This document shows positions 1 to 33,347 of a stretch of DNA of 33,347 bases, piece by piece. The translations under genes and the position numbers were made by a program. Location: positions 1 to 33,347 of IMG/VR virus record IMGVR_UViG_3300048015_000350. One strand, given 5' to 3'. How positions within the stretch are numbered: position 1 is the first letter of the stretch; every line of letters starts with the position of its first letter. Under the pieces are notes generated by a model. That model was given only the letters and a program-made list of their open reading frames with translations. It was not told the origin of the DNA and did not search any database. The DNA comes from a virus.

Positions 1-3000
1 TCACGACGCCGAGAAGCTGCTGCTGGTGACATTCTGGACGCCCAGGAAGGTGATCCGGGTATTATCGGGTAGCGTGACGGTGGTGTTTCCTCCGGAAGTG
101 GTCTGCCCGGCGAGGGCAGCGTTCAGTACGCTGGACGAGTAGTTCCAGAGCGCAATCTGGTCCTGGGTGGGATTGAAGTTTACGATCAAGGTGCTGCCGC
201 CGCCCGCGGCACTGGTGAAACCGTAGATTTCGGACGGGCCGCCGCCCATGATCGTCTGTTGGCCGGAGCTGGCGACAACGATACCGGGCGCGTCGGCGAA
301 GGTGAGTGTGTGGGCGCCGGCGAAGACGGTGGTGTTGCCGGCGTCCATGGTGACGACGTCATTGCCCAGGCCGGCCTGGATGACGGTGTTGCCCGGACCG
401 GCGAAATACTGATTGCCGCCGGTGGAACTGCCGCCCAGCAGCGTTTCGTAGCCGCCGCCCGCGGCCAGGACGTCGCTGGCGGCATTGTCGGCGACCAGAA
501 AGTTATTGTTGCCATTGCCACCGGCCAGCGTGCATGACCCCGAACCGGTGCCGGCTTCCAGGTAGCTGTTGCCGGCCTCCCCGCCCCAGTATTGGCCGCC
601 GCCGCTGGAGCCCCACACCGTGTCGCTGCCGGCCCAGCCGAGGACATTCATGGGCAGCGCTCCGCCGATGATGACCGAGCCGCCGGTGCCACCTAGGAAG
701 GTCAGGTTGCTGGAGTTCGCGAAGATCTCAATGCTATTGCCGTCGGCGCTGGCATTGACGGTGTCGGCGCCGCCCGTGACGGTGTCGCAGCTGACCACAT
801 CGGTGCCGGTATTCATCACGTAGTCGTTGCCGGACCCCAACAGGATGGTGTCCGAACCGGTGCCGGCGGCGATCGAGTCGTTGCCCGTGATGGCCTGGAT
901 GACGTTGGTGCCTGACCCGGTGTCGACGACATAGTTCCCGCTGGCGCCGGCTGCGCTGTTGTTGATGGTGACCAGGCTGTTGCCGGTCGTGGACGTGCCG
1001 CCTGCAGCCTGATTGGCCAGGTAGACACCAGAGCCGCCGTTACTTTCGAACGTTGTGGTGGCGTTGCTGCCGGTAGACAGGAAGAGCTGGTTGTTACCGC
1101 CGCCCACGAGGGTGACGGCGCCATTGGCGACGTCCGAGACGACATTGGTCGCCGCCGGCACGGTGATGATGTCGTTGAGGTCCGAATTGTCCACGGTCAG
1201 CCCAAGGCTGGAGCCAGCGGCAGGGGTGGGCGGGGTCTGCTGATACCTGTAGTAGGTCACCTCGCTCGGGATTGCGGCATTCGCGGCAATGCCGAACGGA
1301 AGGTTCGTGCCGATCTGCACGGGTTTCGCGAGATTGACCACCACGCTCAACTGGGCGGACTGGGCGCTAATGTCGCCGAAGGCATCGGTCGCCTCGGCGG
1401 TCAGCCCGTAGGTGCCGGAGTTGAAATTGTAGCTCGGCTGTACCGACCAGGAGCCGGTAGCCGCCGCCGTGGTGGTGGCGAGAATGGTGCCGTTGTTGAG
1501 CAGCGTGATGAGGTCACCAGCCGGCCCGGTGCCGACGATCGTGGGGTTGGCCGTCGTCGCGACCACGCTGCCGCTGCTGGCGACCGCGCCGCTGATGCCG
1601 CTGATGACCGGTGTGGCGGGGGTCGCGGAGACTGTCACGGTAGTGGCGACCGATGCGGCGCTGGTCTGACCAAGCAGGTTGGTCTGTTCGGCCGTGATGC
1701 TGTCCTGGCCGAGCGGGAGCGCGGTGGTGACGGCTACCGACCAGGAGCCGGAGCTGCCGACGGTACCGGTGCCCAGGACGGTCGTGCCGCTCAGCAGGGT
1801 TACGACATCGCCGACGATGCCGGTGCCGATCAGCGTGGGGCTGGCGAGGTTCGTATGGGTGCCGCCCGTGCCGGTTTGGCTGGCGGGCGCCAGCCCGCTG
1901 ATGGTCGGCACGGCGACCACGGGGGAGATAGCGTCGATGACGAGCGGGCTGGAGGCGGCGCTGCTATTGCCGGCGGTATCGTAGCGGACGGCGGCGGTCA
2001 GGGTGTTTTCACCCAGGACCAGCCCGACAGGGTCAGACCAGCTGCCGTTGTTGGAGACCACGGTGCCGACCGTCGTGGAGCCTTCGAGGATCGCGATCGT
2101 GGCACCCTGCTCAGCGGTGCCCGACAAGACGACGGTGCCGGCGTTGGTGATGTCGTTGCTGGTGATAGTGCCCGTGGTGGCCACAACGCCGGTGATCACG
2201 GGTGCCGGTGCCGTGGTGGTGATGGTGATGGTGAGCGGGTCGGAGGCGACCGTGTTGCCAGCCCCGACGGTGACCACGGCGACCAGCGTGTTGGAACCCT
2301 GGACCATCGCCGTGGCGGGGGTGAAGGTCCACTTGCCAGCCGCGTTGGCGGTGGTGGCGCCTATCGAGCCGCTGTTGTCCAGGATGCTGATGGCCGCATT
2401 GGCGACCGCGACCCCGTCGATCTGCGGGTTGACGACATTGGTGATGTCATCGCCGGCGACCCCGCTGTCGCTACCCGCATCAAGCGTGGGCGCCACCGGC
2501 CGGACGGTGACCACCGCGGTGCCGGCGTTGCTGACGTCGCCATAGGCGTTTGATGCCACTGCGACGATCGTGTTGAGGCCGATCGGTAGTGCAGCGGTTG
2601 GCGTGAAGGAGGCCGTCGAGCTTTGCTGCGGGCTCGGCAGAGAGCCGATCAGGCTGCCGTTGTCGTAGATCGTGACCGCGTTGTTCAGTCCGTTGCTCGA
2701 CGTGATTGAGAATTGCGGTTCCGTGCTGTCGGTGGTGGCAATACCTGAGGCCAGCGCGATGACGGGCTGTGCCGGTATGGCATCAATCGTCACGTCATAC
2801 GCGGTAGATGAGCCGCTGATGGTGCCAAACGGGTCGGTGATGGTCGCGGTGAGGGTGGCGGTGGCGGAAACCGGCAGCGCAGTGGTGATGGCGGCGGACC
2901 AGGTGCCGTTGCTGCCGACGGTGCCGGTGGCGACCACGGTGCCGGCATTCGTTACCGTGATGCGGTCACCGGGGGTGCCGGTGCCGACCAGGGTGGGTGT

Positions 3001-6000
3001 GGTGCTGTCAGTGCGGCTGTCGCCGAGCGTGCCGGTGTCGCTGCTGGTGGCGAGGCCGATGATGCTGGGCGCCGCGGGCTTGGCCGGAAGTGCATCAAGC
3101 ACGAGCGCGCTGGAGGGCGCGCTGCTGTTGCCGGCCAGATCGCGGCTGACCATCGCGGTGAGGGTGTTCTGACCCAGGGTCAGCGCGACCGTGTCGGCCC
3201 AGGCGCCGGTGCTGCTGGCGACCACGGTGCCGATGGTGGTGGTGCCGTCCATGATGGCGATCGTCGCACCCTGTTGGGTGGTGCCCGTCAGGACGATGGT
3301 ACCGGCGTTGGTGAGGTCGGTGCTGGTAATGGTGCCGGTGGTCGCGACGGCGTTGGTGATGGTCGGCGCGGCAACGGCGGTTTCGATAGTCAGCACGAGG
3401 GGAGACGAGACGATGCTACCGCTGATGCCGAGGCTGGCGATTGCGGTGAGCGTGTTGACCCCTTGCAGGAGCGCCGTGCCGGGCTGGAGGGCCCAGACCC
3501 CGCTGGCGTTGGCGGTGGTGGTCCCGATCGTGCCGCCGTTGTCGAGGACCGTGATCGCGGCGTTGGGGGTCGCGGTGCCGTCGATCTGCGGCTTGACGAC
3601 GTTGGTGATGAGGTCTCCCAGGATGCCGCTGTCGCTGGCCGGGTCGAGTGCGAGCGTCGTCGCCGTGCCGGTCACAGTGATCGTGGCGCTGGCCGGGTTG
3701 CTGACGTCGCCGTACTGATCGGTGAAGACGGCGGTGATCGTGTTCAGGCCCAGCATCAGCTGGCTGGTCGGGGTAAAGACCGTTCCAGCCGCCGAGATCG
3801 TGCCGATGGCGCGGCCGTTGTCGTAGAAGCTGATGGTGCCGGCAGCATTCTCGCCGTACGTAATCGTGGGGGTCAGGCTTTTGGTTGTGCTGCCCGCGGT
3901 CAGCGAGAGTGAGGGCGCGGCGGGAACTGGGTTGATCGTCAAATTGTAGGCCGCCGATGCGCCGCTGGTGTTGCCCAGCAGGCCAGCTGCGGTGGCAACC
4001 AGCGTGGCCGGGCTCGCGACGATCGAGCCGCTGACGAACCAGGTGCCGTTGACCCCGACGATGCCGGTGCCGACCACCGCGGTGCCCTGGACCGCGCCGT
4101 TCGCATATTCGATCTGGGTCAGGGTGACGGTGTCGCCCGGGGTGCCGGTGCCGGTGAAGGTCGGTGTGCTGATATCGGTCGCGTTGTCGCCCAGGATGCC
4201 GCTGTCGGTCGCCGGGGTGATGCCCAGGATCGTCGGCGTGGCCGGCGGGACGAGGTCGGCGGTCAGCATCAGCGGCGACGAGGCGGCGCTGCTGTTGCCG
4301 GCCGCGTCGTTGGTCACCTTCGCGGTCAGCGCGTTGGTGCCTTGGCTGAGAATGACCTGCTCGGACCAGGTGCCGCTGCTGTTGGCGATGACGCTGCCGG
4401 GGGCGGTCACGAGGTTATCCGACACGACGATCGTGGTCCCGGCAGCGGCGGTGCCGCTGACGAGAACCGTGCCGGCGTTGGTGAGCAGGCCGGCGGTGAC
4501 GACGCCGCTGCTGGCCGCGACCGCACCGGTGATGGCGGGCGCGGCCGCCGTGGTCTCGATCGTCAGGTCGAGTGTGGTGGCGGCACTGATGTTGCCGACT
4601 GTATCGGTCGCGGTGGCAGTGAGGACATGCATACCAGGCGTCAGCACGGTCGGGACGGCGAACGACCAGTCGCCGAATTGATCGGTGCTGACGGTCCCCA
4701 GATTGATGCCGTCGGCCGCGACGGTAATGATTTCCTTGGGCAGCGCCGCGCCGTCGATGACCGGGGACGTGAAATTCGTCAGATTATCGCCTACCATCCC
4801 GCTATCGCTGCCCGGATCGAGCGTGACGTTGGTGGGTGCCAGCGGTGGGGTGGTCTGGATGGTTACAACATAGACGCTGGAGGCCTGGCTGGTGAGACCG
4901 ACCGGGTCGGTGGCGACCGCTGTCAGGTTGTGGGCGCCGTTGGTGAGTGCCACCGTGCTGGTGACGGACCAACTACCGCTGGCGTTGGACACGGCACTGC
5001 CAATCGAGCTTGTGCCATCGTAGAGCACGATTGTGTCGTAAGGATCCGAGGTACCGTCGATCTCAACGTGGCGGACGTTGGTGATGCTGTCGCCGACCGT
5101 TCCGCTGTCGGTGCTGACATCAATGCCGGTAATGGCAGGTGTGTTGGGGCCGGTAGTGTCGATGACCACGGTGGACGAGTTGGAGGTGTTGCTCGACACG
5201 CCCGAGATGTCGAGGACTTCGGCCATGACGGTATGGGTGCCGCCGCTGAGTACCTGGCTGGCGGCGACGGTCCAGGCGCCACTGACGTTGGCAATCGTTT
5301 CGCCGATCTGGGTATATCCGTCCATGTACAGCAGGACTTCGTCGCCGGCGACCGCGGTGCCGGTGAAAGACGGCGTCGTGCTGGTGGTGAAGCCCCTGGT
5401 GCCCACGAGCAATCCGGTGACGACCGGCGTTGCCGGGGTGGGTATGATCGTGTTGCCGAAGGTCGAGGCGCTCGCGCCCGTGAGGTAGGACGTAGCGCTA
5501 CCGACCGTCTCGAAACCGTTGCCCAGCGCTACGGCTGGGCTGTTACCGACGGTGACCAGGGTGTGGCCGTAGCCGTCCGGCGTGGGAGCGACGGTGACGG
5601 TGGTGCCGGCGGTGGGGGTGAAAACCTCGTAGCCGCTGTTGTCCGAGGCCCAGATGGTGATGGCCTGGCCGTCGGCGGCGATCGTGATGATGCCGTTGCT
5701 GGGATGCAGCGTGAGTGCACCGGCCTGGGTGAGCTTGATGTTGCTCAGGCCGCCGGTGACGGTCTCGCCCGCGTTGCCGCCGGAGATGGTGGCGTTGCCG
5801 GTGGCGAAGAGCAGGGAGACGGCGAGCGAGCCTGAGCCGCCCACGACGTCGAGATTGTTGGTGTCGTTGAAAGCGAACACCCCGGCCGCGCCACTGCCCC
5901 CCAGGATGGTGTCCGTACCAAGGCCGACCACGACCGAGGCGGCATTGCTGCCCAGCTGGACGACCGTGTTGCCGGTGTGGTCCTGCAGCAGCCCGCCGGC

Positions 6001-6033
6001 ACCGCCGTTGATGGTCGTGGTCGATCCGGACAT
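1..6033 (-). CDS. Giant Ig-repeat adhesin, probable type I secretion substrate
   Basis: Complete 2010-residue gene, from ATG at 6031-6033 to TGA at 1-3. Residues 1-200 are Gly/Ala/Thr-rich beta-type sequence with no classical signal peptide. Residues 201-1569 hold fourteen bacterial Ig-like domains of about 90-100 residues; most carry a conserved G-[ST]-W motif, a NTLTA-like strand and a DxxGN-type turn. Residues 1610-1930 are rich in GGxG, GSGND and NDVV turns, like degenerate RTX/haemolysin repeats. The last 60 residues (NFNPTQDQI, then LPDNTRITFLGV, ending SSFSAS) resemble the C-terminal signal of type I secreted adhesins. The likely role is a surface or biofilm adhesin. No ABC transporter, HlyD or TolC gene is in the window. 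It lies beside a prophage but has no phage-protein features, so it is probably chromosomal. Family call is confident; substrate and true secretion route are inferred. Confidence 0.88.
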   Translation of the reverse strand: MSGSTTTINGGAGGLLQDHTGNTVVQLGSNAASVVVGLGTDTILGGSGAAGVFAFNDTNNLDVVGGSGSLAVSLLFATGNATISGGNAGETVTGGLSNIKLTQAGALTLHPSNGIITIAADGQAITIWASDNSGYEVFTPTAGTTVTVAPTPDGYGHTLVTVGNSPAVALGNGFETVGSATSYLTGASASTFGNTIIPTPATPVVTGLLVGTRGFTTSTTPSFTGTAVAGDEVLLYMDGYTQIGETIANVSGAWTVAASQVLSGGTHTVMAEVLDISGVSSNTSNSSTVVIDTTGPNTPAITGIDVSTDSGTVGDSITNVRHVEIDGTSDPYDTIVLYDGTSSIGSAVSNASGSWSVTSTVALTNGAHNLTAVATDPVGLTSQASSVYVVTIQTTPPLAPTNVTLDPGSDSGMVGDNLTNFTSPVIDGAALPKEIITVAADGINLGTVSTDQFGDWSFAVPTVLTPGMHVLTATATDTVGNISAATTLDLTIETTAAAPAITGAVAASSGVVTAGLLTNAGTVLVSGTAAAGTTIVVSDNLVTAPGSVIANSSGTWSEQVILSQGTNALTAKVTNDAAGNSSAASSPLMLTADLVPPATPTILGITPATDSGILGDNATDISTPTFTGTGTPGDTVTLTQIEYANGAVQGTAVVGTGIVGVNGTWFVSGSIVASPATLVATAAGLLGNTSGASAAYNLTINPVPAAPSLSLTAGSTTKSLTPTITYGENAAGTISFYDNGRAIGTISAAGTVFTPTSQLMLGLNTITAVFTDQYGDVSNPASATITVTGTATTLALDPASDSGILGDLITNVVKPQIDGTATPNAAITVLDNGGTIGTTTANASGVWALQPGTALLQGVNTLTAIASLGISGSIVSSPLVLTIETAVAAPTITNAVATTGTITSTDLTNAGTIVLTGTTQQGATIAIMDGTTTIGTVVASSTGAWADTVALTLGQNTLTAMVSRDLAGNSSAPSSALVLDALPAKPAAPSIIGLATSSDTGTLGDSRTDSTTPTLVGTGTPGDRITVTNAGTVVATGTVGSNGTWSAAITTALPVSATATLTATITDPFGTISGSSTAYDVTIDAIPAQPVIALASGIATTDSTEPQFSITSSNGLNNAVTIYDNGSLIGSLPSPQQSSTASFTPTAALPIGLNTIVAVASNAYGDVSNAGTAVVTVRPVAPTLDAGSDSGVAGDDITNVVNPQIDGVAVANAAISILDNSGSIGATTANAAGKWTFTPATAMVQGSNTLVAVVTVGAGNTVASDPLTITITTTAPAPVITGVVATTGTITSNDITNAGTVVLSGTAEQGATIAILEGSTTVGTVVSNNGSWSDPVGLVLGENTLTAAVRYDTAGNSSAASSPLVIDAISPVVAVPTISGLAPASQTGTGGTHTNLASPTLIGTGIVGDVVTLLSGTTVLGTGTVGSSGSWSVAVTTALPLGQDSITAEQTNLLGQTSAASVATTVTVSATPATPVISGISGAVASSGSVVATTANPTIVGTGPAGDLITLLNNGTILATTTAAATGSWSVQPSYNFNSGTYGLTAEATDAFGDISAQSAQLSVVVNLAKPVQIGTNLPFGIAANAAIPSEVTYYRYQQTPPTPAAGSSLGLTVDNSDLNDIITVPAATNVVSDVANGAVTLVGGGNNQLFLSTGSNATTTFESNGGSGVYLANQAAGGTSTTGNSLVTINNSAAGASGNYVVDTGSGTNVIQAITGNDSIAAGTGSDTILLGSGNDYVMNTGTDVVSCDTVTGGADTVNASADGNSIEIFANSSNLTFLGGTGGSVIIGGALPMNVLGWAGSDTVWGSSGGGQYWGGEAGNSYLEAGTGSGSCTLAGGNGNNNFLVADNAASDVLAAGGGYETLLGGSSTGGNQYFAGPGNTVIQAGLGNDVVTMDAGNTTVFAGAHTLTFADAPGIVVASSGQQTIMGGGPSEIYGFTSAAGGGSTLIVNFNPTQDQIALWNYSSSVLNAALAGQTTSGGNTTVTLPDNTRITFLGVQNVTSSSFSAS
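1327..4836 (-). repeat. Three tandem copies of a four-Ig-domain super-repeat in the adhesin
   Basis: The Ig-like domains are not simple tandem copies. They fall into four classes in fixed order: class A with DSGxxGDxxTN and IDG; class B with a TNAGT strand; class C with a GTG(T)PGD turn; and class D with a YDNG or LNNG strand and a GDVS or GDIS turn. The order A-B-C-D occurs three times, at residues about 400-788, 790-1178 and 1180-1569 (bases about 4836-3670, 3666-2500 and 2496-1327). The marker ccgct-tcgct of class A lies near 4799, 3626 and 2462, so the period is about 1165-1173 bases. Two further Ig domains precede the array (residues 201-399). The pattern implies duplication of a four-domain block. 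Confidence 0.8.
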
Positions 6034-6175: not shown

Positions 6176-6544
6176 TTAGCCGACCGGTTCCTCGATGGAG
6201 GCGATGCGACGAGCCATGAGCAATAACAATTGTTGGTCCGCCGGCGAGCAGGCGCGGTAGAGGCGCAGCATGGCCCGCTCGTCGCCGGCCTGGGCGACCG
6301 TCCCGATCGCGTGCCGTTCGTCGTCGCGCATCAGGTCATCGATCTGCACCCCGAGCGCATCGGCGAGGCGGCGCAGATGCAATGTCGCCTGTCCTGAGCG
6401 ACCGCTTTCCCATTGCGCAACAGCGCTGCGGCTGACGCCAACAGTGGTTGCCAACTCGTCCTGGGTGAGCCCGCGCATTTGGCGCAGCTGACGGAGACGG
6501 GAGCCGAGGTCCTTGGGACCGGAACCGGGTTTTATGCCTGACAT
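6176..6544 (-). CDS. XRE/Cro-CI family transcriptional repressor
   Basis: 122-residue protein with a canonical helix-turn-helix at residues 15-70 (LRQLRQMRGLTQDELA, then VSRSAVAQWESG, then LADALGVQIDDLM). The C-terminal 50 residues are helical (SPADQQLLLLMARRIASIE), suitable for dimer formation. There is no LexA-like protease domain, so induction by RecA cleavage is not expected from this sequence. Likely the prophage lysogeny repressor, acting at the palindrome between it and the divergent gene. I chose ATG at 6542-6544; a GTG two codons upstream (6548-6550) is the alternative. There is no Shine-Dalgarno sequence before either, and the predicted transcription start falls on the ATG, so the mRNA may be leaderless. 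Confidence 0.88.
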   Translation of the reverse strand: MSGIKPGSGPKDLGSRLRQLRQMRGLTQDELATTVGVSRSAVAQWESGRSGQATLHLRRLADALGVQIDDLMRDDERHAIGTVAQAGDERAMLRLYRACSPADQQLLLLMARRIASIEEPVG

Positions 6545-26146: not shown

Positions 26147-28891
26147 ATGCCCACCATTGACGAACTTCCAGCCGCCACAGCTTCCGCCGATACCGATGAG
26201 CTGATTGTTAGCCAGTCCGGGATCACACGCAAGCTGACGCGGGCGCAGCTGCTGGCGGGCCTTCAGTCGGAATTCACCGCCGGCGCCGGTCAGCTGCTCG
26301 GCAATTCGTCTGGAGGCGGAGGTACCGAAGGAATTTCCGTTGGCAACAACCTGATTCTGGCCAACGGAACGCTGTCGGCGACGTCGACGCCGTTTGTCAT
26401 TTCAGCGCTACCGACTGGCACGGCGCCGGCATCGACCGACCTGGTGGCATTCTCGCAGGGCGGAACTAACGTCGCCGTCACATACAACCAGTTTGTATCT
26501 GGGCTTTCCTCGCTTTCATCAATTAACGCCTCGCATTTTAACATTACGCCGACCGGAAGTACATCGGTTCTGCAGTTGGGGCAGTTCGCTGCCAATACCA
26601 TCCAGAAGAGTGGCGCCCAGATGTCTGGCCCACTGCTGCTGGCGAGCGACCCCACCTTGCCGCTGCAAGCGGCGACCATGGAGTACGTGCAGAACCAGGT
26701 GACGGCTGCCGCGGCCGGGGCCATCACCAACTCTGGCGGTACGATCTCCGGTCTTCTTTCGGCTCATGGTGGCCTGGACGTCAGTGTGACGCGCAATTGG
26801 TCTGGCGGGACCAACTACAACGACGCGAATCCGACGCAAGCTGGCCTTTCGGGCGTGCAGTCTTTCAGCGGTACCGTGGCAGCTCAGAGTCAGGCATCCA
26901 GCGGCACCATGCTCAATGAACTGCTGGTGCAGGACAGCCTGAATGCAGGTCTTGCCGGTGGTGCCGTCGGATTTAATATACAGCATAATGTGGCTGGCGC
27001 CACTGCGCAGGGTGCGCGCACGGCGTTGCAAAGCACGCTTCAAGTGCAGGGCCCGACCGGAAATACGGGGGGTTCATACAGCGGTATCGAGGCTTCCTGC
27101 ATCGCGTCAGGCAACGACAATGGAACAGCAGCCAACCCCTCCGGCGGGATCGTTGGTATTAACACGGTTTCTCAACTTGGCTCCACCTGCACTCACTGGG
27201 GTAGCTGCGTTGGGCATGAGCTGGACTTAGGTGTCGCTGCCGGGGCGAACGTCCAGACTCTATTTGGCTTGCATGTCGGGACGCCTGGCAATCATGCGGT
27301 CAACGGCTCGCTCGACGATATCGCCATTCACATATCGGGAAGCACTGGCCAATCCGCGTTCTGGAATACCGGGATTGGATTCGGTGCCAACACAAAGCCG
27401 ACTGCTTTTGGTCCAAACTCCACGCTTATCAAGGCCTATCCCGCGATCGGCGCCAGCACGCTGGCTGTGCAGTGCGGCCTGGATTGGACCGCTCTACAGA
27501 CGACCGGCAATATGATGCAAACGCCGGGCTACCAACTGAGCGGTTATGGGCAGATAACGCAGACCCTCACCAACCCTGGACCGTCATCGGCGGCGATTGT
27601 GCCGCATGAGATCACCTTCAGTCCGACGGCCGACCGTGGCGTGAACGGCTATACGGGCTTCTCCGCCCAGGTGATCGCCGGCACGATCAGTCAGAACCCT
27701 GACAATAGCGGGTCGCGCTTCAACACCGAGTACGTTTCAGTTCAGCTTACTACCCAGACAACTTCGGGTACTGGCAGCATTGGCCACTCAGCGATCGGGA
27801 CACATGTCTCGAAGCTGCTACCGGTGCAGGCCAACGGCACCGTTTACAACATGGGGAGCAACGATACTCTACCCGCTTGCTGGAGCCTATATGGCACGGC
27901 TGTCGATCAGAGCAATCTGCCGACCAGCAAGTCCGGTCCGCTGGCGTGTCAGGAATTTGACATGCAGGTGAATGCCATCGACGACCAAGGCGTGCGCGGT
28001 GGCTACGCCTTCAATGCCGACACGAAGCTGTCGCTTTCTTCGAACGGTATACCTGCCACGGTTGCGCAAGGCTTCTACACCTTCGGGCTGAATGACACCT
28101 GGATTTGGACAGGGCATCGCACCGGCGGTAATCATATCATGTCGGCGCACGACTGCCGTGCCGTGACCGGGCCGGAAACGTCAGTGCGCGTGGCCTCTAC
28201 GGGTACCACAGTTGCTGTAGCAAACGTCACGCCTTATACAATCGGAAGCAACGACAGCGGAACAGGGGTTACTCTGGGCGGCCCTGGGTCTAACCCGATC
28301 AACAATGTCAAGATCGGCTCCAATACCTATCAGGTTACTGCGGCAACGCTGGATGGTCCGGGCCAGCGGTCTGGGGTGTTAACCTTGTCGTCCGCGCTGC
28401 AAGGCACTGATGGGGCAGCGGGCAATGGCGTTGCGCGGCCCTTCTATGCGCTGATCATGCGGACCGGCGACAGGATCGCGTTCGACTACGATGGCAATGT
28501 TCAGATGTTTTATGACTCTTCCGTCTTCAACGGCGGAGGTGGTATTCATGTCAAATCTAGCCTGGATGTGGATGGTTCGATCGCGACTGGTGCCGGTAAC
28601 GGGCTTACCGTCGGCTCGGGTGGTATAACATCTTCTGGTGCTATCAGCGCGCTGGGTGGCCTTACCAGCAGCACAGGCGTCAATGTAACCGGTGGGTTTC
28701 TACAGCCTTCCTCATTCACGGTTGCGGGCTTGCCAAATGCAAGTTCCACCCCCGCTAATGCGATCATCTGGGTATCGAATGCCCTGAAACCGGGCGAGGC
28801 ATCCGGGTCCGGAAGCGGCGTTCTAGCTTGCCGCAACGCTGCTGGCACCGCTTGGTTACGGATAGGTGACTACACCGCCCTAGCCGCTTAG
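26147..28891 (+). CDS. Large tail fibre protein (914 residues)
   Basis: Starts at ATG 26147 with a weak ribosome-binding site. Residues 1-80 are an attachment module ([41 protein letters not shown]) shared with the next large fibre. Residues 85-120 repeat the ADL-like module ([25 protein letters not shown]). Residues 150-190 form a shaft-like stretch ([20 protein letters not shown], then [17 protein letters not shown]), a pattern common in phage fibres. The central part (200-670) is beta-rich and Gly/Ser/Asn-rich, likely the receptor-binding head. Residues 678-763 resemble the capsid insert. The end ([15 protein letters not shown]) is typical of fibre C-termini. No intramolecular chaperone or catalytic motif was recognised. 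Confidence 0.85.
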
Positions 28892-28920: not shown

Positions 28921-29016
28921 AGCCGCTTTCGTAGCGCAATCGACGAGGCAGAGCGGCGTCTGGCGTCTTCACGGCGGTTCGCTTTGGCGTGCCGGCATCA
29001 ACACACGAGAAGCGAC

Positions 29017-32000
29017 ATGCCAACCATACAGCAGCTTCCGGCCGCCACCAGCGTCGGTAACCAGGACGAGTTGCCGCTTTACCAGGATGGACAAACCGTC
29101 TCCGTCACGGTGGGGACGCTGTTGGCGGGCACCCAGCCTGTAATCAGCATCGCGTCACAGTCACTGCTTGGGCGCAATAGCATCGGGCCGGGCGGTCCCG
29201 AGCAAGTGGGTGTCGGGCTTGGCTTGGCGTTGGCGACAGGGACGCTGGCAAGCACGGGGCTTGATCATGCCAGCTTTGTCGAGCAGACAGCATTGACGCT
29301 GACTGACGAAGCGATCCTTAACAGCAGCGGCACACCGATGCGTATGCAGCTGCCGCTGCTTCGGGGTTTGTTTTCGGCCGGTGAGAATGTTACGATTGAT
29401 CAGAACGGAACGATCACCGCGACTGGGAATGGGTTGCAAGGCCCGCCTGGCACGCCGGGGACGGGGATCACGGTCGGCGTCGGCGCGCCTCAGGGAGCCG
29501 CCACGGTTAGTGGCAACAGCTACGTTGATGCCGCGACGGGCAATCTTTACTTTGCTGCCGGTACAGACTGGTCGCTGGTCGGCAACATCGCCGGTCCGGC
29601 CGGTCCGCAAGGTCCAACAGGGCCGGCCGGGCCTGCCGGGGTAGCGGGCCCCGCCGGTGTGGCCGGTCCTGCCGGTGCGCAAGGCCCGTTAGGGCTGATC
29701 GGCCCCGCTGGTCCAGCGGGCCCAGTGGGGGCGGCGGGCCCGGCGGGTGCCCAGGGCCCCGCCGGTGCCGCGGGGCCGGCGGGTCCAGCCGGCGCGCAGG
29801 GACCCGTCGGCGCCAGCGGAACTTCGCTGCTCAGCGGGTCGGGTGCACCGGCCGCCGGCCTGGGTGTGGACGGCGACACGTTCCTCAACACCGCTACAGG
29901 CGATCTTTATGTTCGCGCTGGTGGGGCCTGGACCAAAAGCGCCAACATCACCGGGCCGGCAGGCGCACCGGGGACGCCGGGATCATCCGTTACGATCACT
30001 GGCCTGCCGACGATAACCGCCCTGGGCGCGGCTGACCTGGTAGGGGTGAGTCACGGTGGCTCCGATCATGCGATCAGCTACGCCAACTTTCTGAGCGGGG
30101 AGACGATCGACGAGGTCCAGGCGGCGACAGCGGCCGGGGATACCGACGTAGTCCTGGTGGGCCAGGGAGGCAGCTCGCTCCTAGCCCAGACGTTTAGTGG
30201 TGTTTGGACGTGGATCAGCGGCAAGCTGCCAGGATACCGGCTACCGGTTGCGGAGCTGACCGCCAACACGACGCTGAATGTGGCGACCCATAACGCTCGG
30301 GTACTGGTCTGCTCGCTGCCGCTGACGCTGACGGCCAACCCGTCCGCCATGGGATCCGGCTTTGTCTGCGACGTCATCAACGCCTCCACCGGCGCGATCG
30401 TGCTGAGTTCCATTACGAGCTCGACCGGCGTGCCGAGCATCGCCGCCGGTCAGTCCGCGCGTATCTATGCGGCGACCTACTCGGGCGGCACTCTTGTCTA
30501 CGCAGCTCTGGCTGTTGCGAACGTCAATCCGCTTCCCGGGCAGGTTACCGCGGTAACGATTGGCACCACGACCTCGCAATCCGTGTCGCTGTCTTGGTTG
30601 GAGCCTGCAAGCGGCTTGGCAACGGGCTACATCATCCAGTCTCGCTTGACCGGCACATCGAGCTGGAGCCAGTTGGTCGTGAGCGGCACAAGTGGGACCG
30701 TGACCGGTCTGAACGCATCCACGTCCTATGACTTCACTGTGATCTCGACGAATAGCGCCGGGTTGGGACCTGCCTCGGCCCTCGTGCAGGCGACCACGCT
30801 GGCGACCGTGGCGGTGCTTTCGGCTCAGGTCACGGCGCTGACCGTCGGAGCGGCCACTCAGACGACGCTGGCCCTGTCATGGTCCGCGGCGAGCGGTGCG
30901 ACTAGCTACGTGGTGCAGTATCGACCCAGCGGGAGCACCACCTGGACGACATATGCCGCCAACGTGACGGCAACCAGCGTGACCGTCATGGGTTTGCTGG
31001 CCGGCACGGTCTATAGTTTCCAGGTAGCAGCCGTCAGCACCGGCGGAACCGGGCCCTATTCCGCGATCGTACAGGGTGAGACCACTGCGTCCGCAGTCGC
31101 GACAGTACCGGGGCAGGTTACTGGATTGGCGACAGGCGCGGTCACTACCGCTTCGATCGCGTTGAGCTGGACTTCAACGGCGGCCGCTACTAGCTATATT
31201 GTGCAGTATCGAACGCATGGGGGGTCGACCTGGAATACCGCTGCCAGCAGTATTGCGGGGACTTCAGATGTCGTTAACGGCCTGACTGCGGGTACGGCAT
31301 ATGATTTCCAGGTCGCTGCGACCAACAGTGCAGGGATAGGCGCTTATTCGTCGGTCGTCACGGCTACAACGACTTCGTCGACGCTGGCTTTGCCCGGCGC
31401 GGTCACCGGACTGGCGGTCGGGACGGCGACCAACACGACTTTGCCCTTGAGCTGGACCAATCCGGCCAGCGGAGGCGCTATCGCCGACATCACGGTGCAG
31501 TATCGCACGCCGAGCGGCACCGGCACCTGGGTCACCGCTAGCAGCACTGTCCCCGCGACGCAGACCAGTTTCACAATCAATGGCTTGACCGCCGGCACCG
31601 GCTATGACGTGCAGGTGTTCGCGACAAATGCCAGCGGCGCTGGCCCCGCCGATGTGCTTCCGGATGTAAGCACCAGTTCTGCGTCGACGATCCCGAACTA
31701 TTATCTGACCAATTTCAACAACGACTCACTACCGCCAAACACCAGCTATTCGATCGCCGCCGGCGGAACCCTCAATTGCTTTGTGAACACGAACAGCGAA
31801 GGCGGCGGCAGTTACGCCTTTCCAGCAGCGGTGTGGTTCTTCACCACTCAGGACCTCAGCACGATCCAGTCGGTGGGCGCGACGATCAACGGTACCGGCG
31901 GCAAGGAAACGCTGAGCAGTGGCTATGCCTACGGCTGGGTCGCGCCATGCTATGTGCCGATGCCGGCCAGCCCTGGCACATGGTATGTCTGGGCCGCCGC

Positions 32001-32064
32001 GGTCGATAGCAACGGCGTGATCGGCTCCACGGTGCACGGGCCAGCCTTCACGGTGACGGCATAA
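29017..32064 (+). CDS. Large fibre with collagen-like and fibronectin III domains
   Basis: 1015-residue protein; the frame opens at 28984, but ATG 29017 gives the same MPTI(Q)QLPAAT start as the preceding fibre. Residues 1-82 are the shared attachment module ([31 protein letters not shown]). Residues 139-150, 192-268 and 311-325 are Gly-X-Y collagen-like stretches, interrupted by [20 protein letters not shown] and [20 protein letters not shown] units. Residues 328-360 are an [20 protein letters not shown] module. Residues 508-885 are four fibronectin III domains, and the last 125 residues are beta-rich ([31 protein letters not shown]). Probable long fibre: the stem extends reach and the Fn3 domains may bind surface sugars. 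The stop overlaps the next ATG by one base (TAATG). Confidence 0.88.
29590..29820 (+). repeat. Collagen-like Gly-X-Y repeat region
   Basis: About 25 consecutive Gly-X-Y triplets, mainly GPA, GPQ, GAQ, GPV and GAA (residues 192-268), with one irregular step. In DNA it appears as repeated ggcccngcgggt-like 9-base units. The G-x-x periodicity is typical of phage collagen-like fibres that fold as triple-stranded stems. Confidence 0.88.
30538..31671 (+). repeat. Four tandem fibronectin III repeats
   Basis: Units at residues about 508-594, 602-690, 698-786 and 793-885 share a V-(T)-x-L/V start, an LSW strand, a YxVQYR-like strand, GLxAGTxYxFxV and ATNSAGxG(P/A) ends. The second and third are the closest pair ([14 protein letters not shown] versus [14 protein letters not shown]). 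Fn3 units of this style are common in phage fibres and secreted glycan-active enzymes. Confidence 0.9.
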
Positions 32065-33347
32065 TGCCGCCGTTTCTAGCACGGCCCGGCGTGCCATTTC
32101 TGGTGCGGCCTGGCGTGCCGTTTCTGATCGGGTCCGGGGCCGGCGCGGGTTCCGGCAGTGGATCTGGCAGCAGCAGCGGTTCCGGAAGCGGGAGCGGATC
32201 GAGTGGCGGTAGCGGGTCCGGGGGCGGATCGAGTAGCGGCAGCGGGTCAGGGTCCGGCGGCGCTTCGGGCAGCGCCACCCTCACGCTGCCCAGCGCGCCG
32301 CAGATCGTCGCCATGGGGCAAAGCAACCTATTCGCGCTCGCGATAACCGATGCCGATAACGTCTACGACCCCAGTGGCACCGGCCCGCTGCTGCCCGGCA
32401 TGGACGCCGCGCTGGTGTCATATCTGGGGCTGGCGGGCGCGGCGATTCTATACTCGTCCAGCGGCACCGATGTGGTCGGCAACGGCATCTATGCCAACTC
32501 GGCGAACGCTGGCGCCTCCGCCGGTTCGTGGCTTGACAACCCGAACACGATCTCTGGCGGCACGGCCAATCTGCCATCGCAGCTGGCCGATCCGTCCGCT
32601 TGGATACCGCCGACGCAATGGACCTGGGGTTCACCGGACGGTACCACATTCGAATCCTGGGTGACGGCGCTGCCGGCGCAGCAAAAGGCCGATGTTTGTT
32701 CCTTGCTGTTTATCTGGCACGAAAACGACTCTGGCCGCACCTACGCTGAAAAATCGGTCTGGAAGGCCGCCTGGCAGCGGTTCATTTCGCTGGTCCGTGG
32801 CGAATTCGGCATCACCACGCCGGCGCTGATGCCGGTATTTGACTGCACGCCGATGCCATCGGTCGGCAACGCCGGCGGCCACGCGATGGTCTACGAAGCG
32901 GTGTGCGAACTGGCGGCCGATCCGTCCAACGCGCTCTACATCGCGCTGCCGCAAATGGCCGACTGCGACCCCAGCACGATCGCCGCGCTCGCCGGCAGTA
33001 ACCACACGAACTACACCAGCTATCTGGACTTTTCTACCCGTGCCTCATTTTTCATGGGCCGCACGCTGGACAGCCTCGCCAGCATCTCGCGCATCCCGGC
33101 CGCCATGGGCACCGGCGCCGGCCCTGTCATTTCCGGCGCCAGCCTGTCGGGCAACGTGGTTACCGTCACCGTCACACATGACGCTGGGACCGCTCTTGTG
33201 CTCAATGGCGATGCGAATATTGGCGCCGGATGGTCTGTTCTGGATCAAAGCTACTCGCCTGACTTGCCCGGCACTGCAATACCGGCCACCGCGGTTGCGA
33301 TCGTCAACGCTACGACGTTCACGATCACGTTGGCCTGGGTTCCAATC
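32064..33347 (+). CDS. SGNH-type esterase, partial (runs off window)
   Basis: Open frame from ATG 32064 to the window end, 428 residues without a stop. Residues 5-22 carry repeated RPGVPFL units. Residues 23-70 are an almost pure Gly/Ser linker. The catalytic domain starts near residue 72. Block I is VAMGQSNLFAL (Ser at 87), block III is LLFIWHENDSG (residues 214-224; W-H-E-N-D where sialate O-acetylesterases usually have Q-G-E-S-D) and the His block is probably SNHTNYTSYLD (His314). The pattern is that of SASA/SGNH hydrolases. The likely activity is removal of acetyl groups from surface polysaccharide, as in phage tail enzymes. The C-terminal part is beta-rich (NVVTVTVTHDAG). Substrate is inferred. 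The TAATG overlap couples it to the fibre. Confidence 0.7.
   Translation, partial: MPPFLARPGVPFLVRPGVPFLIGSGAGAGSGSGSGSSSGSGSGSGSSGGSGSGGGSSSGSGSGSGGASGSATLTLPSAPQIVAMGQSNLFALAITDADNVYDPSGTGPLLPGMDAALVSYLGLAGAAILYSSSGTDVVGNGIYANSANAGASAGSWLDNPNTISGGTANLPSQLADPSAWIPPTQWTWGSPDGTTFESWVTALPAQQKADVCSLLFIWHENDSGRTYAEKSVWKAAWQRFISLVRGEFGITTPALMPVFDCTPMPSVGNAGGHAMVYEAVCELAADPSNALYIALPQMADCDPSTIAALAGSNHTNYTSYLDFSTRASFFMGRTLDSLASISRIPAAMGTGAGPVISGASLSGNVVTVTVTHDAGTALVLNGDANIGAGWSVLDQSYSPDLPGTAIPATAVAIVNATTFTITLAWVPI

Follow-up and report, generated by a model that had tools for sequence, protein, structure and literature searches.

A putative SGNH-family esterase gene coupled to a tail fiber gene, with an altered active site, at the end of a prophage tail operon

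The product of the last gene of a prophage tail operon in the sequence studied here is probably an ester hydrolase of SGNH fold, held on the tail through a short peptide and a tether, that deacylates host surface polysaccharide. The fold, a set of conserved residues, the pairing with an upstream tail gene and a common N-terminal peptide are what the analysis shows; docking, location in the virion, the substrate and the role of each residue are what we infer. The sequence, termed "the window," is an entire virus record of 33,347 bases. The stronger peculiarity of the enzyme is the loss of an Asp in block V of its active site, rather than the change in block III stressed in an earlier sequence-only reading, and our emphasis therefore lies on block V and on the docking arrangement.

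The esterase gene (positions 32064 to 33347, plus strand) stays open up to the contig end, and is thus cut at the 3' end of the record; 428 amino acids are seen, and approximately 610 are expected from a complete relative, L002. This relative, carried on a 12.5-kb viral contig, has 611 amino acids and is 72% to 75% identical to the window protein over their common part. The stop codon of the preceding fiber gene, TAA (32062 to 32064), overlaps the esterase ATG as TAATG (32062 to 32066, plus strand), which confirms the earlier description of an enzyme gene coupled to the fiber at what is, as far as seen, the end of the tail operon. Overlapping or near-overlapping junctions occur in nearly all relatives. 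The L002 gene retains the features of the window reading frame, namely, GQSN, WHENDS, the linker and the N-terminal repeat, and the same order of parts is kept in about 20 more-distant relatives. Moreover, dN/dS between the window and L002 is 0.19 over the SGNH domain, indicating purifying selection. Given these three observations, the set of features in the window is not a product of chance.

The SGNH hydrolase domain was delimited by predicted structure and alignment to approximately residues 77 to 346 (32292 to 33101, plus strand), and it is followed by the start of a beta domain (33123 to 33347, plus strand), which L009 and L044 carry on other tail proteins. In these two loci (L009, 5569 to 9557; L044, 527 to 4346), the SGNH gene ends without the beta domain, and a GTLTG-repeat protein or a concanavalin-like protein encoded 2 to 3 kb downstream bears it as a fusion instead. 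Two AlphaFold models were built, from 9 and 11 sequences, with modest confidence (pLDDT 54 and 59). When the pLDDT 59 model was compared with the PDB, the best 39 matches were all SGNH hydrolases (Z 14.4 to 8.2), several of them from phage tails, and the first unrelated fold appeared just below, at Z 7.4. The matches include the N4 tail protein (Z 14.4), the CE20 enzyme XAC1771 (11.5), the Pan3 tailspike (10.4) and Moo19 gp82 (8.2), and the earlier model (pLDDT 54) gave similar results. The modeled fold is accordingly the three-layer, flavodoxin-like fold of SGNH hydrolases, and the SGNH identity proposed in the sequence-only reading is supported at the level of structure, within the modest confidence of the models. 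With respect to CE20, whose members combine an SGNH fold and a beta domain with DxH and a water-mediated triad, the pLDDT 59 model gives a fold match (Z 11.5), and DxH is absent.

Sequence models, in contrast to these structural matches, miss the family. Profile searches with Pfam, PHROGs and NCBIfam and sequence searches of the PDB returned only linker or chance matches. One of these, DUF3693 in L002 (E 0.00011, just over the cut-off), was rejected as a chance match to a short helix after block III that is absent from other members. Comparison with SASA-family enzymes had been proposed as a check, and, at a threshold of E<=10, the SASA (CE6) profile PF03629 matched neither the window nor the records of seven relatives, whereas it did match four control genomes. 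No relative of the esterase was found by tblastn in 50,697 phage records, and scanning bacterial genomes twice gave none either. Approximately 25 relatives came from viral contigs, which were searched iteratively, and a plasmid set yielded two, both Rhodovastum proteins. Phage enzymes of this kind are known, and the esterase forms a new subfamily among them. In L004 (14800 to 14908), block I lies outside WP_250265872.1 as annotated, and GQSN is recovered if the protein begins at an in-frame GTG 108 bases upstream.

In an alignment of 21 sequences, from which the counts for blocks III and V were extended to more members, the residues Q86, S87, N88, G139, E220, D222, S223, R245, D300, H314 and R326 are invariant (21/21). 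They include Ser87 and His314, the predicted catalytic pair. Block I, GQSN (residues 85 to 88; 32316 to 32327, plus strand), with the presumed nucleophile Ser87, is intact as previously claimed, its Q, S and N being invariant. The block II candidate, Gly139, has a fitting place, but the model is of low confidence there.

Block III of the window reads WHENDS (residues 218 to 223; 32715 to 32732, plus strand). The sequence-only reading was right that the WHEND block exists and that His219, in place of the usual Gly, is uncommon, but the alteration is milder than it supposed, as the family norm is not QGE but WGE[TNA]DS, with W-x-E-x-D-S in nearly all members. The window thus differs from its relatives by one residue. 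Position 219 is Gly in most members and His only in the window and L002; elsewhere it is Ser (L047, L052, L065, L067 and L069), Leu (L066), Thr (L003) or Asn (L004). Because Glu220, Asp222 and Ser223 never vary, whereas G, S, L, T, N and H are all accepted at position 219, block III does not by itself support the unusual chemistry that had been suggested. We also considered HEND as a classical GxND block III and rejected it, because the column of Asn221 is variable (T, N, A, Y or S), whereas Glu220 is constant; the classical Asn is not present in all SGNH families, and the SASA type lacks it (PMC9487903). In SASA enzymes, block III is HQGE and keeps the Gln of block I in place within the oxyanion hole (PMC9487903). 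The window reads WHE and lacks the (H)QGE form; of the residues involved, the Glu and the Gln of block I alone are retained, and with these two a SASA-like oxyanion logic may persist.

In block V, which reads AGSNH in the window, His314 (33003 to 33005, plus strand) is present and the Asp at -3 is missing. Across 28 members, D-x-x-H occurs in 18, N-x-x-H occurs in four, and the acid is absent in six, among them the window and L002; within the 21-sequence alignment, it is lost in the window, L002, L004, L006, L011 and L013. Block V of L002 reads DGTYH, with an Asp one place further. Because the Asp of D-x-x-H is absent, the window enzyme likely uses a Ser-His dyad or a substitute acid. A candidate acid partner is the invariant Asp300 (32961 to 32963, plus strand), which is also invariant in members with an intact D-x-x-H. 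The sequence-only reading had treated a missing catalytic His or Asp as evidence against an enzyme; the Asp is indeed missing, but the His is in place. Nor does the loss of the Asp refute function, because active SGNH enzymes lacking it are on record: EcNanS is active without the block V Asp (PMC9487903), and, among related enzymes, CE20 members use a water-mediated triad, and a dyad has been reported for the eukaryotic SIAE (PMC12313940).

The N-terminus carries an anchor-like peptide (residues 1 to 22; 32064 to 32129, plus strand) whose tandem octapeptide contains RPGVPFL twice, at residues 7 to 21. The repeat noted in the sequence-only reading is thus real, and it is kept in L002; the form in the family is LGRLVLAAPGVxL. 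The peptide is common to nearly all complete starts, and Gly pairs spaced by 7 or 8 residues are present in 24 of 25 starts checked. In an earlier subset of the loci, the pattern occurred at these protein starts and in a single unrelated frame. A Gly/Ser/Ala linker follows (residues 23 to 71; 32130 to 32276, plus strand). It had been described as 45 residues of Gly and Ser; the linker stands, but its length is 49 residues. In relatives, a linker rich in Gly, Ser and Thr likewise comes after the peptide, and its length varies. In L047, L050, L052, L067 and L069, the anchor has the same position, and a GWWDAS domain of approximately 250 residues lies between the linker and the SGNH domain.

Nucleotide identity between the window and L002 is 83% to 95% in the fiber, anchor and linker and 66% to 83% beyond, and dS rises from values between 0.15 and 0.31 to values between 0.91 and 1.7. 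This step could reflect exchange or faster evolution, and the jump in dS favors exchange, as it fits replacement of a payload behind a constant joint.

The partner gene (28984 to 32064, plus strand) encodes a tail fiber of 1026 amino acids with collagen repeats, four FN3 domains and a C-terminal domain in common with the C-terminus of the L002 esterase; the fibers and the full-length L002 esterase match in this domain with E-values of 4e-7 and 1e-7. The fiber and its neighbor (26147 to 28891) have a common N-terminal segment (MPTI..LPAAT), 47% identical over 80 residues. Within the partner, residues 371 to 509 (30094 to 30510, plus strand) form a conserved domain, a homologue of which is carried by the directly upstream gene in 18/18 viral loci, the window included (E 4e-17 or better). 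A search with this domain alone found 29 loci, three of which (L050, L051 and L074) end before an esterase could appear. The esterase family lies downstream in 24 of the 26 informative loci and is absent from L054 and L072; many of the 29 loci were already known, and L047 and L048 look like one phage, so that independent support comes from approximately eight of 10 new loci. Throughout, the esterase gene adjoins a tail protein gene, nearly always overlapping it. In L066, downstream of position 6513, the partner gene is followed by a GDSL-type SGNH hydrolase (GDSR, GVVND, DGLH); two different SGNH enzymes thus stand in tandem, and the adjoining family member has its own anchor peptide.

We propose that the N-terminal repeat of 20-odd residues would dock on the co-translated upstream tail protein, probably via the conserved domain, and that the Gly/Ser linker would serve as a tether between the docked peptide and the catalytic domain. 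Anchoring of this kind, already suggested by the sequence-only reading, is supported by the conserved peptide, the conserved coupled partner domain and the divergence step after the linker. The catalytic domain would remove acyl, probably acetyl, groups from host surface polysaccharide during adsorption, the host probably being a relative of the acetic acid bacteria. In the active site, Ser87 would attack the ester with His314 as base, Gly139 and Gln86 would form the oxyanion hole lining, Gln86 being held by Glu220 in a SASA-like manner, and a dyad, water or Asp300 would make up for the missing Asp.

Two other explanations were weighed against this one. The protein could be a receptor-binding lectin, that is, a degenerate SGNH fold that binds glycan without ester hydrolysis. 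The six members that have lost the block V acid and the confinement of His219 to the window and L002 are compatible with such decay, and the title of PDB entry 2w9x describes a carbohydrate esterase active site with a noncatalytic binding function. We nevertheless judge a lectin unlikely, given that Ser87, Gln86, Asn88, Glu220, Asp222 and His314 are kept without exception, that dN/dS is low, and that EcNanS and SIAE provide precedents for activity (PMC9487903, PMC12313940). A second alternative is an enzyme that the prophage secretes or uses in lysogenic conversion, rather than a part of the virion, its N-terminus being an export signal. The window N-terminus is hydrophobic, and a bacterial relative, an SGNH protein encoded on the Rhodovastum plasmid RHOApa near glycosyltransferase and polysaccharide pyruvyl transferase genes, has a weak RTX-like repeat. 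However, the constant adjacency to a tail protein gene, the C-terminal domain that L002 has in common with the fiber, and a peptide with internal Pro and Arg and tandem eight-residue spacing, unlike a Sec signal, make secretion very improbable.

Beyond the tail-bound hydrolase that we prefer, a broader reading seems possible, if somewhat doubtful: a plug-in system in which a conserved tail partner domain would receive a repeat peptide of approximately 20 residues, while payloads vary behind an exchangeable Gly/Ser tether. The payload would be an SGNH domain alone, a GWWDAS domain with an SGNH domain, or an enzyme beside a separate GDSL-type hydrolase, and some, like that of the window, would have a Ser-His dyad and a remodeled block III. 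Deacetylation is emerging as a common answer of temperate phages to host surface sugars, and the family represents a branch of such esterases that sequence models miss. On a single scaffold, it also provides natural variants of the active site that have or lack the block V Asp, and its conserved pairing of two genes includes a short peptide whose candidate docking role is directly testable.

The tail is probably contractile, because the upstream tail genes include GPD-like and baseplate J proteins. The nearest baseplate J proteins in phage records are those of the Komagataeibacter phages phiKX1 and phiKX2 (44%), which, together with the Rhodovastum relatives, suggests a host in the Acetobacteraceae. 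At the left end of the window (1 to 6033, minus strand), a 2010-amino acid reading frame contains twelve Big_13 Ig-like repeats, together with a weak RTX repeat, and its product is probably a surface protein of the host, encoded beside the prophage.

Virion SGNH deacetylases are already well known (PMC11654681, PMC13123978), and a place for the window enzyme among them is suggested by gene order and by the conservation of the partner. Moo19 gp82, B2 gp48/gp49, G7C gp63.1 and the SGNH fibers of Klebsiella prophages are active esterases (PMC11654681, PMC13123978). As in the N4/G7C-like tailspikes (G7C gp63.1, Moo19 gp82 and B2 gp48/gp49), an SGNH domain occurs in a tail protein; the N4 tail protein and Moo19 gp82 match the window model in fold, and B2 has in gp48/gp49 a fiber paired with a separate 44-kDa protein (PMC11654681). 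Unlike these tailspikes, the window enzyme has no detectable sequence similarity to records of the phage collection, and it belongs to a prophage with a probably contractile tail and carries a short repeat peptide and a Gly/Ser tether. The SGNH receptor-binding proteins of Klebsiella prophages are also prophage tail enzymes, with demonstrated esterase activity and a link to capsule type (PMC13123978), but the SGNH domains tested there lie inside tail fibers, whereas that of the window is on a separate, coupled polypeptide. The SASA/CE6 and CE20 esterases (1ZMB, 2APJ, XAC1771, PpCE20_II and SIAE) have in common with it the GQSN block I, the block III Glu, the fold and a following beta domain, and some of them have the His without the classical Asp. 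The window enzyme differs from this group in lacking a PF03629 match, in its block III, where another residue, in the family usually Trp, takes the place of the Gln of HQGE and His that of the Gly, and in showing no sign of an inserted ancillary domain. Finally, WP_150041348.1 of the Rhodovastum atsumiense phage-plasmid RHOApe has a homologous SGNH domain (30% identity to L002), and its tail operon includes a sheath gene, but it has 1390 amino acids, an N-terminal SGNH domain, no anchor peptide and an intact D-x-x-H. In this protein (L003, 14977 to 19149), the SGNH domain is joined to a part annotated as a cellulase-family glycosylhydrolase, an annotation not confirmed by Pfam.
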